In this document: piece by piece, positions 55,761-63,463 of the stretch | How positions within the stretch are numbered: position 1 is the stretch's first letter | Layout of the letters: each line of letters opens with the position of its first letter | Source of the DNA: Dactylonectria macrodidyma | Taxonomy: Eukaryota > Ascomycota > Sordariomycetes > Hypocreales > Nectriaceae | Length of the DNA: 64,000 nucleotides | NCBI GenBank assembly: GCA_020744425.1 | Contig: JAGMUV010000019.1 | Coordinates: forward strand, 806,001-870,000 | Direction of reading: 5' to 3' | Notes under the pieces: generated by a model | What the model was told of the DNA's origin: nothing | Seen by the model: the letters and a program-made list of their open reading frames with translations, nothing else | The model's database searches: none | Position numbers and translations under genes: made by a program

Positions 55761-58700
55761 TTACCACACCCGCTTATCTCCCCCAATGGCCTCATCCTCA
55801 TCATCCTCGACATCGTAGCCCATCTCCCGCACCTCCCGCGCCCGTTCCTTGGCCTTTCGCGCCTGTCGCCATGCATCCCACTTGGCCTGTTGCTCTGGAT
55901 CCTCTGTGCGCGGCTTCAGCAAACCCTTCTTGTGCATGCGCCGGCGGAGCTGGCGCTTCTGCTCAAACGATAACGCGTCGACGTCGATATCGGTCATTTC
56001 GCGGCCATGGTAGGCGTCCAATAAATCAGCCGACCAGTCCCCCATCTCCTCCATGAGCATGTCCATCAGGACGCGACCCTGGCCGCCGGTAGTCCACTGA
56101 TCCAGCTTGACGGGTAGCGCGGTGCCAAAGGTAGGGTCGTCGAAGGACCAGACGCAGGGAGTTTTGCCGCACGACGTAGGACGACAGTACGCGGCGCACA
56201 TGGCCGATTCGGCGGCGTACCAAAGCGAGAAGAGTAAGACCATGATGCCCAAGAACGTAAAACGAAACGATGGCTTGCGGCGGTAGAGACTCGGGACAGG
56301 TAGGCTTAGAGGTACGTAGGACACCGTCCCTGGGCCCACGGGTGTCGTGCAGCTAGTGCAATGGTCGTGGTCTTGAGGATGCGTGTCCGACTTCTCGGCC
56401 GACTTGGTCTCATGCAGGACCTGGTCTTCAAGGCGCTCGATGCCCTTCTTGGCAGTACGGATACCCATGAGGCCGGTTTGCAGGGACTTGCTCATTCGTG
56501 TAAAGGTAGCTAGGTCGCCGTCGGAGTGGTCTGGATCTTGAGGGTTGATCTTGTTACTCTTGGTGTTGAGTCTGGTGTCGAGCTCTAGGTCAAAGTCAAA
56601 GTCGTCGTCCTGTGATGCCTGATCCTCGAGGTTGTTGATGAGAGCTTCCATCCTTGGCGTAGGGGCCTTGCGACCTAGCAAAATTTCCTCGAGATCGTCG
56701 AGGGTTGAATCTTCAATTTGATGAGAGCGCTGAAGTTGCATTAGGTCATCTTTGACAGTTGGTGGCTTGGCCGTGTTCCTCAGTGGCCCTCTGCGCCGCG
56801 GCAGTGAACGAGCGCGCCTTCTTCTCACTCCGGATGACAACGCCGTGGATGCGGATTTCTCGTCCGTCCCCGGATCAGACGTCGTGTCCTGATCGTGACT
56901 CTGCCATGCAACGTCCACCTTGCTTTCTCGAGGCCGTGCAGAAGATCTCGGCCGTGATAATTTAGCATCTTCAGGCGCCTTTTCGTGCACTTTCTCCTCC
57001 CGTATTGATGCACCTGATTTTGGTCGTGGCATATCTTCGTGCGGTTTCTCCTCCCGGGTGGATGCTGAGGATTTCGGTCGGGATGCCTCCTCCACCGGCT
57101 TCTCGTCTCGGATCGATGTTGAGGATTTCGGTCGGGGTATGTCCTCAAGCGTCTTCTCCTCCCGGATTGATGTAGATCTTGGTCGTGGTGCATCATCGAG
57201 CGGCTTCTCCTCTCGGGCAGATTCTGCCCATTTCGGTCGGAGTACGTCCTCCAGCGGTTTGTCTTCTCGGATAGATGCTGCAGATTTTGGTCGGGGTGCA
57301 TCCTCCAGCGTCTTCTCGACCCGTGTGGAAGCTGAAGACCTCGGTCGCGGCAGCCGTGTCTCCTCGCGTGGCTTCTCATCCTTCAGTTCAATCTTCTCCA
57401 CCTTGACCGTCGCTGGAGTCTCAACATAAGCTCCTGTGATTTTCGGAGTTGGCATCGTCAGTGGGTCAGGCTTCGGGGCCCGTGGTGTTGCTTCGACATC
57501 CTCCTTCTCGTCTTCCGAGTCTGAAGACGGAGACGGTGCTCGAACCGAGCCCTTCTCCGAGTGGTTCTCGCCCGGCGCGAAGAGGTTCATCTCCGCTTCT
57601 ATCCTGTCTGTGGGATCTGACTCCGACTGCATACTAGATCTCTTGCTCTTAACAGAGTCAGTGGAACGCGTACGGGGCAGACCGGTAAATCCAACAGTGG
57701 GTTTCGATGTTTCGTTGTTCATCCTTTGGCGTTGCGCATGTCTCGGACCATATTCGGATGCGCGTCGTGGGATGGCGGTTCTGGAATCTGAATCTTGGGT
57801 GGCGGGCTTGTCAGCTGGCAACGGACTGGGCGGCCGTCGTGGCTCCGTGTCCGGCGCAGGGCTGGAGCTCGCAGCTCTTGCCAGCCGTCGCAACAAATCT
57901 CGCGAGTCACCGCGTGTATGGGAATGTGACATGTCAGGTGGTACAACGCCAACCCCGTCGTTTGCTTTGCTTGATTCACCCCGTTCCTCTATAGGCGCAT
58001 GATACTTAGTCTCCAGCGCCTTGAAGATGGTGACGGGCGTGTCGGGTATTCGCTGACCGCCCATCTCAAACGCCGACTTTGGTCGAACCGGATACTCTCT
58101 ATCCCGATCTACGGCAGAAGTCGTCTCCCGGCCAGTTCGGGCCGACAGCGGTCGGGGTTCCTCTGGAGACAGTGAACGAGAGTGGGAGTTTGAGTTTTGC
58201 TCCCGGATCTCCTCCAGCCTTGCTTTTGCCAATGCTCGGCTGGGGATGCCGGTAATCTCGCGTTGACGTATTTCGTCCAACTTGGTGTTTCTAGGTCTCG
58301 GTAGACTCCTGTCTGGGATTGGTATCTGGTACTCAGCCTGAGCCTCACGCTGCCGTATGTCATCTAGCTTCGTATTGCGCTGCCGCCTTTGGGAAGATTC
58401 GATTGGGATATTGCTTCCGGCCTTGACCTCCCTTGACCGGATCTCATCCAGCTTAGTATTCCGCGAGCCTGGGTTGGCTACTCTTGTCCGCGAATTGATA
58501 TCAATCTCACTTCCTTCGTCAAACTTGATTCGGTTGGCAAACGGCCTAGTTCCCATCGAAATCCTAGGACTATCCGATATCTGTAGGTCTCCAGCGGTAA
58601 AGTCCTGGTCGAGCTCCCAGGCAAATTCCTTCTCGGGCGATGCATTCTCTGCGTTCAAAGGAGTGGGCGGAGCCCGGCCTTGCTGGTGCTGTCCATTCTC

Positions 58701-59549
58701 AATCGATGGCCATGGCAGGTCTTCTATCCCTGGGACCAGTGGGGGAATGCGACCTTGGTTTGTTAGATCGTCCTTGGACGGCATGTGCTTCAGTAGCCGC
58801 GACTCCGGCCGAAGCCTACTACTTGGATCATCTGGACGGTGTTCCGCACGGTCTTCGGGTGTGACCCCATTAACCTGTAGGCCAGGGGTATCCTGCGCAG
58901 GTTCTTTTGGTCCAAGTCCTATCCTCGACTTTCCGTACAACGACCTCCGCCTGGGCGTGTCGCTCTTCTCCGGTGAGGGTCGTACTTCTCCTAATGTCGA
59001 GGTTGCTAGAGAGTGGCGCGAAAACGGCCGGGATGGTGCCTTAGTATCCAGGTGATCTTGCCCCAATATCTTCCTCATCCTCTTGTCTTCCTCCTCACGT
59101 CTTGCGCGGGCCACTCGAGGTGCCGGGCTGGGTGACGCATCCATGACAAGGCTCTGGTCGCTCCCCTCCTCATCCTCCTGCATGGCCCGGTTGAATGCAT
59201 CGCTCAGTGACAGTTGCTTTCGGCTCGAGAACGTGACGCCCGTGGGTTTCGGTATGCGCGTGCCCCCAGGTGATGCCAGGCTGCTGCTGCTGCTCCTCCT
59301 TTCCAGAGTCCGCATCTGTGGCTCCGAACTCATACGTCGTACGCCATCTCCAAACGCGCTTGTCCGATACTTGCTCGTGTTGAGCTGTGGTTGATCGTTT
59401 TCTTTATCTTTGAGCTTCGTGTTGTTGATGTCGTCTCCTCGAGAGGCGGTACTGGAGAATAGCGGCTTCCTGCCTGACTCCTTGACGACAAGCAGGCTCG
59501 TGGGTCTCCCATTTGGCCGTTTGGCCAGAGGATCTTTGTCGCGTTCCAT
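55761..59549 (-). CDS. Large repeat-containing single-pass membrane protein, 1262 aa
   Basis: Single exon, product not recognised. The first 1000 residues are low-complexity and highly charged, with LSLSDAFNRAMQEDEE near residue 115. Three copies of about 28 residues with core RNTKLDEIRxRE lie at about 356-450. A later array of seven or eight copies of a 19-residue unit (RPKSxASxREEKPLED) spans about 730-873. The acidic-then-helical segment LDDLEEILLGRK is near 950. Around residue 1090 a hydrophobic helix (FTFLGIMVLLFSLWYAAESA) is followed by a Cys-rich piece (CAAYCRPTSCGKTPCVW), then a long helical charged C-terminus (FEQKRQLRRRMHKKG). This suggests a membrane-anchored scaffold, perhaps at the ER/nuclear envelope or spindle pole, but that is a guess. 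No lesions. Confidence 0.82.
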   Translation of the reverse strand: MERDKDPLAKRPNGRPTSLLVVKESGRKPLFSSTASRGDDINNTKLKDKENDQPQLNTSKYRTSAFGDGVRRMSSEPQMRTLERRSSSSSLASPGGTRIPKPTGVTFSSRKQLSLSDAFNRAMQEDEEGSDQSLVMDASPSPAPRVARARREEEDKRMRKILGQDHLDTKAPSRPFSRHSLATSTLGEVRPSPEKSDTPRRRSLYGKSRIGLGPKEPAQDTPGLQVNGVTPEDRAEHRPDDPSSRLRPESRLLKHMPSKDDLTNQGRIPPLVPGIEDLPWPSIENGQHQQGRAPPTPLNAENASPEKEFAWELDQDFTAGDLQISDSPRISMGTRPFANRIKFDEGSEIDINSRTRVANPGSRNTKLDEIRSREVKAGSNIPIESSQRRQRNTKLDDIRQREAQAEYQIPIPDRSLPRPRNTKLDEIRQREITGIPSRALAKARLEEIREQNSNSHSRSLSPEEPRPLSARTGRETTSAVDRDREYPVRPKSAFEMGGQRIPDTPVTIFKALETKYHAPIEERGESSKANDGVGVVPPDMSHSHTRGDSRDLLRRLARAASSSPAPDTEPRRPPSPLPADKPATQDSDSRTAIPRRASEYGPRHAQRQRMNNETSKPTVGFTGLPRTRSTDSVKSKRSSMQSESDPTDRIEAEMNLFAPGENHSEKGSVRAPSPSSDSEDEKEDVEATPRAPKPDPLTMPTPKITGAYVETPATVKVEKIELKDEKPREETRLPRPRSSASTRVEKTLEDAPRPKSAASIREDKPLEDVLRPKWAESAREEKPLDDAPRPRSTSIREEKTLEDIPRPKSSTSIRDEKPVEEASRPKSSASTREEKPHEDMPRPKSGASIREEKVHEKAPEDAKLSRPRSSARPRESKVDVAWQSHDQDTTSDPGTDEKSASTALSSGVRRRRARSLPRRRGPLRNTAKPPTVKDDLMQLQRSHQIEDSTLDDLEEILLGRKAPTPRMEALINNLEDQASQDDDFDFDLELDTRLNTKSNKINPQDPDHSDGDLATFTRMSKSLQTGLMGIRTAKKGIERLEDQVLHETKSAEKSDTHPQDHDHCTSCTTPVGPGTVSYVPLSLPVPSLYRRKPSFRFTFLGIMVLLFSLWYAAESAMCAAYCRPTSCGKTPCVWSFDDPTFGTALPVKLDQWTTGGQGRVLMDMLMEEMGDWSADLLDAYHGREMTDIDVDALSFEQKRQLRRRMHKKGLLKPRTEDPEQQAKWDAWRQARKAKERAREVREMGYDVEDDEDEAIGGDKRVW
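56930..57360 (-). repeat. In-frame repeat array, 19-residue unit
   Basis: Seven or eight diverged copies of a 57-bp unit coding (A/P)RPKSxxSxREEKPLED inside the large membrane protein. In-frame expansion and variable copies are visible; length is likely to vary between strains. Confidence 0.75.
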
Positions 59550-60897
59550 CGCCGGGGTTGGCGACAGCAGTTGGACCAGTGGCGTTGAATCAGAAGGCGG
59601 ATAGATGCATCGTTGTCATCAAGGTCAAGCTCGGATCGTCGGCGCGTTCATAGCAATGGAGGCAATTGCGCGACGGACAGGACGGGTGTTTCGTGTAAAA
59701 CAGCTGTTCAAGAGTACAAAAAGTGCGACGAGCTCTCGTTCGGCGAGCAAGCACAGCAAACAGAGGTTATCGCAAGGTTGGTCAAATGTTTTGGTAAAGT
59801 CGTGCTAGGCGCGTTGGAAGCGGCCGAGCTTTGGGGCCGTCTTGGCGGTCCGCGACTGCCAAGTCTGCCATTCTGTCCTCCGCTCCTGCCGTTTCGTCGC
59901 TTCTGCGTCAGGTTCGCCTAGCTTCCCCTGTCCGGAGCCGGGAAAGGTGATTTATCCGGCGGCAGACTCATCTCATTGGCGGCTTTTGATCAACAATCGA
60001 CCGTTGGGCTCCACACATTTACAGATGCCATGTCCGTGAATCAAGAAAGAACACTGCGTGAATGAATAAATGAAAGGAATTTGGAGGAACGCAAGACATT
60101 AACCGAGTTTTAAAAACAAATATCAAAAGTTTATTTCATCAGCTGGTATTTGAATACTAGCCGTACATATCATAGTTCATCCAGGATTAAACTCTTTCTA
60201 AGAGATACACCCGACCACCTCCTATAATTTCTAAGTACCTGCCTGTAGGTACAGGTGTGGGCCCGGAGTGAGAACTTCAGTAACGAAGAGTTCCACAATC
60301 TTCAAGCAAATTTACCTCAGCATCACTTGGTTAACCTACAAGATTGGAAATTAAGGACTACAACCTTTGCGCACAAGGTCTTAATGCTGGTGCCAACTGA
60401 CTCATTTAATTATCTATCAGATAAATGATCAAGTGTTGGTAGCTAGATACAAGATAAGGCCAGTTTGAGAGCTTCGTCCACAGCTCGCGATTGCCAATCT
60501 TACCATGTTGGAAATACGGTGTTATCAGATGTGCAGTTGTGCAGTTTCGCGCAACTACATTTATATGTGGCGGATGACAGACAGAAGATAATGAACAGCT
60601 ACTAGTTCAGTAACATTAAACGCGAGTATGCATCCACATGCAGGAGAAAGGTGGGTGAACATCCTCTCTGGAGATAATGCGTAAACCTTATCTTTGAAAT
60701 TCTCAAGGAATTTCTTATTCATACCTGCTTGCTCCAGGCCAAAAAAAAAACCTCTTCAGGTACCTAGACTTCTGGTACTAAGGACCAGACATTATCTAGA
60801 CTTGAAGTCCAGCCGTTTGTAGCCTCCGAGCGTTCTAGTTCTAGTCGGTTCTGGATAAATGATCCAGCATGAGAAGACGTGTAGTTAGCCATGGCTA
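59550..60897. other. Intergenic
   Basis: Promoter of the repeat protein and 3' flank of the LOV gene. No gene or RNA found; AT-richer from 60,050 on. Confidence 0.5.
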
Positions 60898-62278
60898 TCA
60901 CTGAATTAGAGGCGGGATGGCATCCGGAGACTCGACGAGGTCGATTTGGCATCCAACGAAGTACCTGGTTTCAGGCGTGTCCCAAGGGATGGGGATTATC
61001 GTCATCAGGTTCAAAAACGGCTTGCCCCCTTTCCTATAATTAATCATGCTCTGCTGAATCTCGTGTCCGCTCTGGATCATCTTCTTGAGACTGTAAACGG
61101 CAGTGTCATCGACGTATACTCGCTTCGACCCAGCCTGGACTTTTCCATCAGGCGCCTGTAGAAAGCGACAGTTTTTTCCAATTATTTCATGGCGACTGTA
61201 TCCTGTGAGATTCTGGAACCCTTCAGACGCATATATAATAGGCCAGTCATCTAGAACTGCGTCACACACGACGAAAACGCCCGAAAAGTTGAGTGCGCTC
61301 ATATCTATCTTGGGGTCTTTGCGAGTAGAAACAAGCCATAGGGCCTTGAATATGTCGAAATTAGACGTCTCGTTTCTGGGCTCCTGACTTGATGACAATT
61401 CAGGGTTGGCTGGGTTGCTAAAGAAAGAGCTGTTCAGTATCGGAAACATCGGTTGTTGATGCTGCACGTCATATTGAAGCTCGTCAAGCCTTGTGCTTGC
61501 TGTATCTTTTGAAGTAATTGCCCATTCGACGTCGGAAGGAGGTATAACCGGCGACCCAGGAAAAGAAGCGGGAGGGGAATCCCAGAGTGATTCCGTGTAT
61601 TCGAGAAACCGGTTCAAGGCGAAATGAGCGTCTGTTACATGCCCCTCGGAGCCTTGCTCTTCCACTATGCTGGCCAGTTCGATGCGGTCGATCTCCAAGG
61701 CCTTAAGTTGTGACTGGATTTGTTTGAATTCTTCTTTGAAATCAGACTCCATGCGTTTTGTGCGCTCGTCGATTGATGTCGTAGTAAAACTTCGAAATAG
61801 GCAACGATCAGCGCCAAAACTCATGTATCCAGCGAGCCATGGATACTTACAGTGTCACAGCATTGGCTGCAAGATTGAGCGACGCTTTATACGTGAGGAT
61901 CGTGTCCCTAAAGAGTTGAATCTCCTTGTCTTTAAATGCCCAAACGATTTTCTTCCATGTGCGAACCTTCCTGGTCCCATCGCTGGAAGCCTGAGTATAG
62001 CTCTGAAGAGTGAGCGTGAACTCTTGAAATATGTCCAGGCAATTTTCCAAAGCAGCCTTGAGAGGGTCACACAACGATCTGTTGTCGTCTAGTTTCTGCT
62101 GCAAGTGCGTGAGGCGTTCAAGGGTGCCATGCAATGCCTTCAAGTCTGTTGAGAGTGATGCGATGTCCTTGGGGGCGCTTTGCAGGCTGTCAATGAGCTC
62201 AAATAGCCTTCTTGAGCCATGCAGAGCGACGCCCAGGATGCCTATGACGCTCGCCGTAACGGAGAGCGGATCTGCCAT
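60898..62278 (-). CDS. STAND/HeLo-like N-terminal domain fused to a WC-1-type LOV photosensor, 439 aa, 2 exons
   Basis: Exon 1 62278-61851, intron 61850-61790 (GTAAGT...TTCGAAG), exon 2 61789-60898. The N-terminus (MADPLSVTASVIGILGVALHGSRRLF, then DIASLSTDLKALHGTLERL) matches the fungal N-terminal domain found on STAND/NLR proteins and PigL-type proteins. A coiled-coil-prone helix (about 146-190, KRMESDFKEEFKQIQSQLKAL) and a variable linker follow. The LOV domain (about 310-430) has FVVCDA, YASEGFQNLTGYSRHEIIGKN, and CRFLQ with the photoactive Cys at about residue 350. The 11-residue insert typical of WC-1/VVD, INYRKGGKPFLNL with both flavin-binding Asn, and FVGCQIDL with the Gln complete it. 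All flavin positions are present, so it should bind FAD/FMN and form a Cys adduct in blue light. The alternative start at 62353 adds 25 residues without family character. Confidence 0.87.
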
Positions 62279-63463
62279 AATGGGTGCTGCATCGGCGGCC
62301 TGGGGATAGCAAGATGAATGAAAATGAGTGAGTTCGCAAAATTGAAAATGCATTGCGACGCCTTCCCTGTGCCATGTGGCCTTGGAGGGCCAATAGGATA
62401 AAGCCTGAAATGAGATAAGCCACCACGAAGCAAGCCACTTTCAATGCTCGCTCACTGAGACGACGAGCGTATTCGTGCGAAAATGCACAGCTAGGCGTAA
62501 GTGGAAGGGGAGAAAATGCGATAAGTTACCTCTTGACAGGCTCGATGATCTCCTGATATGTCATTGGTCTAGCCAGGGCCTTTGCTGGCCGGTTTTCCTG
62601 CGTTTGCTAGTTAGCCAAGGGGTCAATGAAACACCAAGGAACTCTGAGTCCCAACAAAACAACCTGCCAACTCAATTGGGAAATCAGATTCCTCAAATAG
62701 ACCAAACACGGATAACATTACTTGAGTAGGTTCGACTTCTTGGGGACCTGTAGTCAACGTCCAGGCATGGAATGTCTGTCAGGAAGATGAAGGCGCGTGA
62801 GAGGCCAAAAGTATCCCGCAATTCGGTTGTGGTTGAATCGGATTCCTGGCCAGGTTCATTCTGCCATCTAGTCTTGCCTAACTCAAGTTATTGACCACTT
62901 ACACACAACCAGTTGATGTTGTTCATCGAGCTATGCATCTGGTGCATGGATGCGTGTCAGATTTGGCGACAGCGCACCAATTGGCAACCAGTCGCTCAAA
63001 ACACACAATCACCAACCTCTCAAAACTCGTATCCTCTAACTTGAGTGCTTCAGGATCTAGAAATACACTCTGAGATACAAGATTCGATTCATCTATATCA
63101 AGCCTATGCTGAATAAGCAGGGCCGATAGTCTGCATGAGTCTCCACACTGCCCACTTGGTCCAATGCGCCCTGTACGCCCTACATTCAACAATGACTCAG
63201 TGCAAGACTGCGACTCATCTACTCCCTAGACTCATACGAATTTTCTATTCTACATAGCTACTGTGAGTCAATTGGCCACTTAAAGAGTTCCACTGGACAC
63301 TTCCCTCCTGTGCTTGATCCCTTGGTGTTTGTCGTTGAGCAAGCATCTGCGAAACACCTAGAGACAGCCATCCAAGGAACTCGACTTAAACACTGGGCTA
63401 CCAGGCAGGCTTAAACAAACCCATTCAACTCGTCTATCTCTTATATCCTCTGACTAGTTCATA
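62279..63463. other. Divergent intergenic region, LOV gene / AATase-like gene
   Basis: 1.2 kb. A 90-codon minus-strand frame at 62923-63192 has no known family character. No gene annotated. The two genes are divergently transcribed. Confidence 0.5.

Follow-up and report, generated by a model that had tools for sequence, protein, structure and literature searches.

White collar-1 (WC-1, also WcoA or BLR1) combines a LOV domain with PAS-B, PAS-C and a GATA finger, and Vivid (VVD, also ENVOY or VvdA), the product of a separate gene, has a LOV domain behind a short cap and no DNA-binding domain. The zinc-finger-less WC-1 of basidiomycetes likewise contains a LOV domain without a DNA-binding finger of its own, but it keeps its PAS domains and acts with WC-2; we know of no such protein that carries a HeLo-like head. 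In its survey of the LOV flavoproteins of Fusarium, a 2023 review (PMC10056346) names four besides WcoB (WcoA, VvdA, LovA and LovB), and that survey describes no chimera of the kind reported here. We analyzed a minus-strand gene in a stretch of 64,000 nucleotides from Dactylonectria macrodidyma (assembly GCA_020744425.1, size 77.3 Mb; contig JAGMUV010000019.1, positions 806,001 to 870,000), hereafter called the window, in which such a head is joined to a WC-1-type LOV domain. Judged from its sequence, the gene looks like a copy of white collar-1 that arose by duplication, exchanged its N-terminal region for a HeLo-like module and lost PAS-B, PAS-C and the GATA finger.

The gene resembles WC-1 in its LOV domain, which has an N-cap helix and the WC-1/VVD loop, in a PAS-B remnant behind it and in some relatives that still carry PAS-PAS-GATA; it differs in its N-terminal module, in a product without PAS-B, PAS-C and GATA, and in the presence of a canonical WC-1 besides. 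With VVD it shares the lack of a DNA-binding domain, the fold and probably the LOV-LOV contact, whereas 284 residues (the PF17111 module and a linker) precede its LOV domain and the residue corresponding to VVD Cys71 is a glycine. Related fungi also have LOV proteins outside the WC group, LovA and the RGS-LOV proteins (LovB, BcLOV4-type) (PMC10056346), but these would be separate LOV matches in the genome, and the scan of P0001, the database protein of this gene, gave no RGS match. From the other members of PF17111, with which it shares a family match above cut-off, a modelled four-helix bundle and a hydrophobic first helix, the protein differs in the partner of the head, which appears to be a photosensor and not an NLR, ankyrin repeats or an amyloid motif.

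The HeLo-like head, the LOV domain and the gene that joins them

In the splice model derived from the sequence, the gene (62278-60898) has two exons and a product of 439 amino acids. Exon 1 (61851-62278, minus strand) holds residues 1-142 and two bases of codon 143 and encodes the HeLo-like (PigL_N) head; the intron (61790-61850, minus strand) has 61 bp, GT-AG borders, a CTGAT branch-like site and the acceptor AAG; exon 2 (60898-61789, minus strand) extends from the remainder of codon 143 to residue 439 and the stop codon. If the 61-bp intron remained unspliced, translation would end after residue 143. The spliced protein is identical to the D. macrodidyma protein P0001 (439 aa; 100% identity over 100% length), which bears out the single two-exon gene proposed in a first-pass annotation of this DNA; this identical protein, together with relatives of the same architecture, rules out a chance arrangement or a split gene. 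In the relative P0037, inspection by eye revealed 23 extra residues between '..MTL' and 'FTATSIDER', precisely at the exon junction; taken as an intron retained at this site, they would support the intron position independently.

The exon 1 product matches Pfam PF17111 (E 2.5e-21; 76.5 bits, cut-off 27.2), and in the whole-protein scan the match spans residues 2-174 (79.5 bits against a gathering score of 27.2). This family is PigL_N, named Helo_like_N or HeLo-like in the nomenclature used in PMC9815663, and the assignment of the N-terminal domain to the STAND/HeLo-like family in the first-pass annotation thus holds; the SesA and HeLo profiles gave sub-threshold matches only. The module is about 228 residues long and occupies the place of the WC-1 N-terminal region. 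Exon 1 was modelled by AlphaFold2 as a four-helix bundle (pLDDT 80.1; helices 4-31, 37-58, 67-93, 108-114 and 116-140). When the head was searched against PDB sequences, the matches were weak (best E 0.0018), and Foldseek with the head model gave no match at E 0.001 or better. Exon 2 encodes a coiled-coil-prone helix, the conserved SPPxSFPGSP tail of the module, a disordered linker and the LOV domain. The long helix (61657-61767, minus strand; residues 151-187) is taken from the whole-protein AlphaFold2 model, in which pLDDT falls below 50 from residue 177; the mean pLDDT of that model is 63.8, and the head and LOV blocks score above the linker.

The LOV domain (60916-61365, minus strand; residues 285-434) is supported by a table of key residues and by comparison with WC-1 and VVD. 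The exon 2 product matches PAS_9 (E 1.3e-16), residues 286-425 align without gaps to VVD chains, VVD being the top sequence match, and VVD also ranks first when the whole-protein model is compared by fold, where the LOV domain is 39% identical to it. Cys350, Asn393, Asn403 and Gln424 are all present; the codon of the photoactive Cys350, in the motif NCRFLQ, lies at 61168-61170, and the flavin asparagines of VVD fall by alignment at its positions 151 and 161. The residue aligned with VVD Cys71 is Gly313 (codon at 61279-61281). The domain had been called an intact WC-1-type LOV, and its cysteine, both asparagines, its glutamine and a 68% identity to the WC-1 of the same genome agree with this; Gly313 does not, so that the word intact would fit the photochemical core and not the whole signalling path.

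Probable derivation from white collar-1 and a graded series of relatives

A search of the genome gave five LOV matches, namely this gene, WC-1 and three weaker ones. The LOV domain is most similar to that of the canonical WC-1 which the genome has kept (P0200; a 954-residue frame with a GATA finger on contig C16; the 68% given above), and its identity to the other three is 37% (contig C1), 36% (C77) and 33% (C2). From their sequences we would assign the match on C1 to the VVD-like type and those on C77 and C2 to the LovA or RGS-LOV types. An origin of the LOV domain from VVD is ruled out on identity (37% versus 68% for WC-1), VVD not having been included in the trees. In the scan of P0001, PAS-B and PAS-C are absent from the product and no match to PF00320 (GATA) was obtained, although this match is present in P0121 and P0122; the place of the WC-1 N-terminal region is held by the PF17111 module. 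For BcWCL1 of Botrytis, this N-terminal region is described as carrying an activation domain and as required for self-dimerisation and activation in assays in yeast (PMC10418492).

Immediately 3′ of the stop codon, outside the protein, lies a decayed and frameshifted remnant of a WC-1 PAS-B domain with a short following piece (60466-60755, minus strand). Co-linear, frameshifted PAS-B pieces at 60755-60508 were detected by tblastn over the whole window with five WC-1-type queries (E 1.7e-6 to 7.5e-6), and on a 598-bp stretch the best piece reached 36.2 bits, whereas none of 500 dinucleotide shuffles (491 scored) exceeded 21.9; the reading frame thus formerly ran on into PAS-B. Taken alone, the last piece (60507-60466) is not significant on the window (E 0.46 to 2.8). 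The G+C content of the stretch that contains the remnant (60300-60897) is 42%, versus 49% in the gene.

The architecture is not an oddity of one species, as at least 24 clusters carry both PF17111 and PAS_9 according to precomputed domains: 21 came from a search with the full-length protein (148 proteins at E 0.001 or better, best 120 of 148 listed) and three, P0121-P0123, from a search with the Ilyonectria head (28 proteins, all listed). When P0122, a full chimera, served as query, 1078 proteins were obtained, and 3 of the best 120, those listed, carry PF17111. The both-domain clusters come from Dactylonectria, Ilyonectria, Purpureocillium and many Fusarium species, and their database names include 'White collar 1' and 'GATA transcription factor LreA'. 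The fusion that had been taken to be undescribed is thus common in databases and absent from the publications found: the open-licence PubMed Central literature gave no description of a PigL_N or HeLo-like domain with LOV, of WC-1 paralogs or of duplicated white-collar genes in F. oxysporum. When 237 fetched proteins were compared, 47 contained the module, 37 of them with a LOV match and 10 without.

Domain content was established by direct scans of eight proteins and otherwise by precomputed domains. P0121 (P. lilacinum) and P0122 (F. oxysporum) carry PF17111, LOV, PAS and GATA in direct scans, and P0123 carries the same set in the precomputed domains; P0008 (Ilyonectria robusta) has PF17111, LOV, PAS-B and PAS-C without GATA and ends in KKKRKRA just before the expected start of the finger; P0001, P0012 and P0018 have PF17111 and LOV only in direct scans, and in P0018 (F. 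beomiforme) a short stretch resembles by eye the region ahead of the WC-1 finger. The relatives form a graded series, from PigL_N-LOV-PAS-PAS-GATA (3 proteins) through the form without GATA (Ilyonectria) to PigL_N-LOV (this gene and Fusarium copies). About 58 residues are missing from the start of the module in P0008 and P0121, probably owing to their gene models. The first-pass annotation had foreseen neither that the gene is a probable truncated paralog of WC-1 nor that three both-domain clusters still possess PAS and GATA.

The head is also found with other partners. In P. lilacinum, the heads of P0121 and of P0046, which combines PF17111 with ankyrin repeats in a direct scan, are 89% identical over 165 columns although the bodies differ (WC-1 versus ankyrin repeats), a sign of head swapping, and P0026 of Thelonectria olida, named a histidine kinase, joins PF17111 to PAS_3 as a second sensor-type fusion. 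Among the LOV matches was P0062, a white-collar-like protein filed under Candidatus Bathyarchaeota with 65% identity to this LOV domain over a third of the query, which is probably a fungal contamination of an archaeal bin.

The LOV tree comprised 65 rows, consisting of 32 of the 37 chimeras (at least 140 positions) and 33 canonical WC-1s that we selected. In this tree a single clade placed among the WC-1s (98/94) unites the 29 chimeras that lack GATA according to precomputed domains, P0122 and P0123 fall inside the Fusarium WC-1s (95/95), and P0121 stands next to Bionectria, near Purpureocillium and Metarhizium; the end branch of the Dactylonectria protein P0001 is long (0.3), and the bootstrap of the tree had not settled. 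The module tree (33 of 47 rows, root unsure) places the modules of Dactylonectria, Ilyonectria and Fusarium, including the full chimeras, in one clade (100/98) with Thelonectria outside, and pairs P0121 with the ankyrin protein P0046 of the same species (100/100). P0121 groups with the Purpureocillium WC-1 both in a tree of the tail (97/98) and in a tree of LOV plus both PAS domains (6 chimeras, 25 canonical proteins, 536 columns; 100/99). On these 536 columns a single joining for all six PAS-keeping chimeras was rejected (p-AU 3.2e-7), as was a single clade of the three GATA-bearing chimeras (p 8.5e-6), whereas the five PAS-keeping chimeras other than P0121 were not rejected as one clade (p 0.053). 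With the LOV domain alone (150 columns) one clade was not rejected (p 0.16; without P0121 p 0.38), and because this domain is short it cannot decide the number of joinings. We read these results as pointing either to at least two joinings of the module to WC-1 or to overwriting of the WC-1 part by gene conversion from a canonical WC-1.

Constraint on the LOV domain and possible functions

Between the LOV domain and that of the WC-1 of the same genome, 30, 19 and 85 differences were counted at the first, second and third positions of 150 codons (dN 0.197 by NG86; dS saturated, giving no value). At the level of codon comparison this shows protein constraint over the whole time since the duplication, the period before truncation included. 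Key residues were tabulated for the 37 proteins that have both the module and a LOV match, counting fragments, and for 190 other LOV-matching proteins, mostly canonical WC-1s with a few short likely chimera fragments (P0067, P0069). In VVD numbering, the photoactive cysteine at position 108 is present in 35 of the 37 chimeras (Gly 1, gap 1), asparagine at position 151 in 34 (Ser 2, gap 1) and at position 161 in 35 (Lys 1, gap 1), glutamine at position 182 in 29 (Leu 4, Arg 1, gap 3) and cysteine at position 71 in 34, the single glycine there being that of P0001 (gap 2). All 190 proteins of the comparison set have Cys108, Asn151, Asn161 and Gln182, and 185 have Cys71 (Ser 1, gap 4). The leucines at position 182 belong to P0008, P0009, P0021 and P0022.

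We tentatively favour, at a little less than an even chance, the view that the protein is a modulator of the white-collar complex without a DNA-binding domain, which would act through LOV contacts and assembly by its head. Its LOV domain, given the kept core, would bind flavin, probably FAD as in VVD, and form the cysteinyl adduct; it may keep WC-1-type LOV contacts, either with the cell's own WC-1 or with itself, and the helical head and coiled coil could supply assembly or localisation. With neither DNA binding nor the activation region left, the protein would on balance damp or redirect the white-collar complex, much like VVD in Neurospora, and would have come to do so by a separate evolutionary route.

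Several observations weigh against this view. In VVD, Cys71 passes the signal on to the N-cap from the flavin pocket. As described in PMC6378743 and PMC6396943, the C71S and Q182L variants of VVD keep their photochemistry while the conformational switch is blocked, C71V in turn enhancing the switch. Since this N-cap relay cysteine is replaced by glycine in P0001, the effect of light on the protein is uncertain, and the signal may be altered or lost; in the Ilyonectria chimera Gln182 is replaced by leucine, the very change that stops the VVD switch. Five Fusarium clusters contain the module without a LOV match (P0030, P0031, P0033, P0035, P0040). In 1190 bp upstream of the gene GATCGA was found 0 times (0.28 expected), giving no sign of white-collar feedback, and GATC 3 times (4.98 expected). 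Furthermore, among the pairs that we selected for comparison (18 chimera and 7 canonical pairs), recent Fusarium chimera pairs have head/LOV identities of 91/80, 88/77, 92/78 and 96/72%, and the Dactylonectria-Ilyonectria pair 79/66%. Head and LOV are about equal in deeper pairs (65/63, 64/66%), and the order is reversed in pairs with GATA-bearing chimeras (P0122-P0001 64/71, P0121-P0001 58/69, P0121-P0122 55/82%). LOV identity amounts to 62-80% in 12 pairs of GATA-less chimeras versus 91-98% in 7 canonical WC-1 pairs. This pattern of identities makes it less likely that the GATA-less clade strictly requires a photoswitch.

The same rates are what slow gene decay would produce, a possibility we regard as unlikely though by no means negligible. 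The LOV domain would then be a passenger under relaxed constraint and in the course of being lost, as in some Fusarium copies, while the helical module would be the conserved working part. The long end branch of P0001 and the contrast with the canonical pairs fit this, as do P0019, with glycine instead of the photoactive cysteine, P0020, from which the LOV core is missing, the five module clusters without LOV match, and the PAS-B already decayed at this locus. Speaking against decay, 439 codons have stayed open and the core intact right beside a frameshifted PAS-B, the photoactive cysteine is kept in nearly all chimeras, and third positions have changed far more often than second ones (85/150 versus 19/150), though this count spans the time before truncation too. 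Were the protein instead a scaffold that does not respond to light, it would work as a constitutive HeLo-like adaptor, and its LOV domain would serve to bind WC-1 or to sense redox state or oxygen and not to act as a photoswitch; a conserved flavin core alongside varying signalling positions (Gly313 here, Gln182 to leucine in four chimeras) would then be accounted for. Both positions are nonetheless kept in most other chimeras (Cys71 in 34/37 with 2 gaps, Gln182 in 29/37 with 3 gaps), and signalling in the absence of the glutamine has been reported for other LOV proteins. We give the scaffold a small likelihood.

Improbable, too, is a light-gated HeLo-like effector, in which blue light would free the four-helix head for membrane assembly in the manner of HeLo and MLKL-like domains. 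A light-gated form of a membrane or assembly activity had been suggested in the first-pass annotation, and light gating of a membrane or death activity finds no support here: full chimeras with GATA carry this head too, the small region read showed no NLR-like neighbour, the LOV domain evolves faster than the head between recent Fusarium chimeras, and the protein has lost VVD Cys71. A broader version, in which a head of the death-effector kind was repeatedly joined to the white-collar photoreceptor, so that blue light would govern how an immune-type domain assembles or acts on membranes, apart from gene regulation in the GATA-less members, is in our estimate also of low probability.

Surroundings of the gene and wider meaning

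One neighbour of the gene is a 1283-residue open frame (55764-59612, minus strand) with no Pfam match at E 0.01, and the other is an acetyltransferase-like gene with a sub-threshold AATase match. Beyond the latter, in the adjoining stretch L014, long frames resemble by eye a membrane channel. An NLR-like partner was not seen in the two scanned window neighbours or, by eye, among the open reading frames of at least 180 aa in L014, amyloid motifs not having been searched. Upstream of the gene a single GATNC..CGAT-like site lies at 63074 (0.11 expected in the upstream stretch) and may be due to chance.

The PigL_N-LOV proteins would constitute one more LOV family, so far concealed by 'white collar 1' labels, in Dactylonectria, Ilyonectria and many Fusarium species. 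The series from the full chimera to a LOV-only protein with a PAS remnant would show a light-driven transcription factor becoming a small LOV protein, and hence a second route to a VVD-like molecule. The VVD switch could readily be tested on the natural changes of Cys71 to glycine and of Gln182 to leucine, and optogenetics could make use of the head if it assembles in the light.
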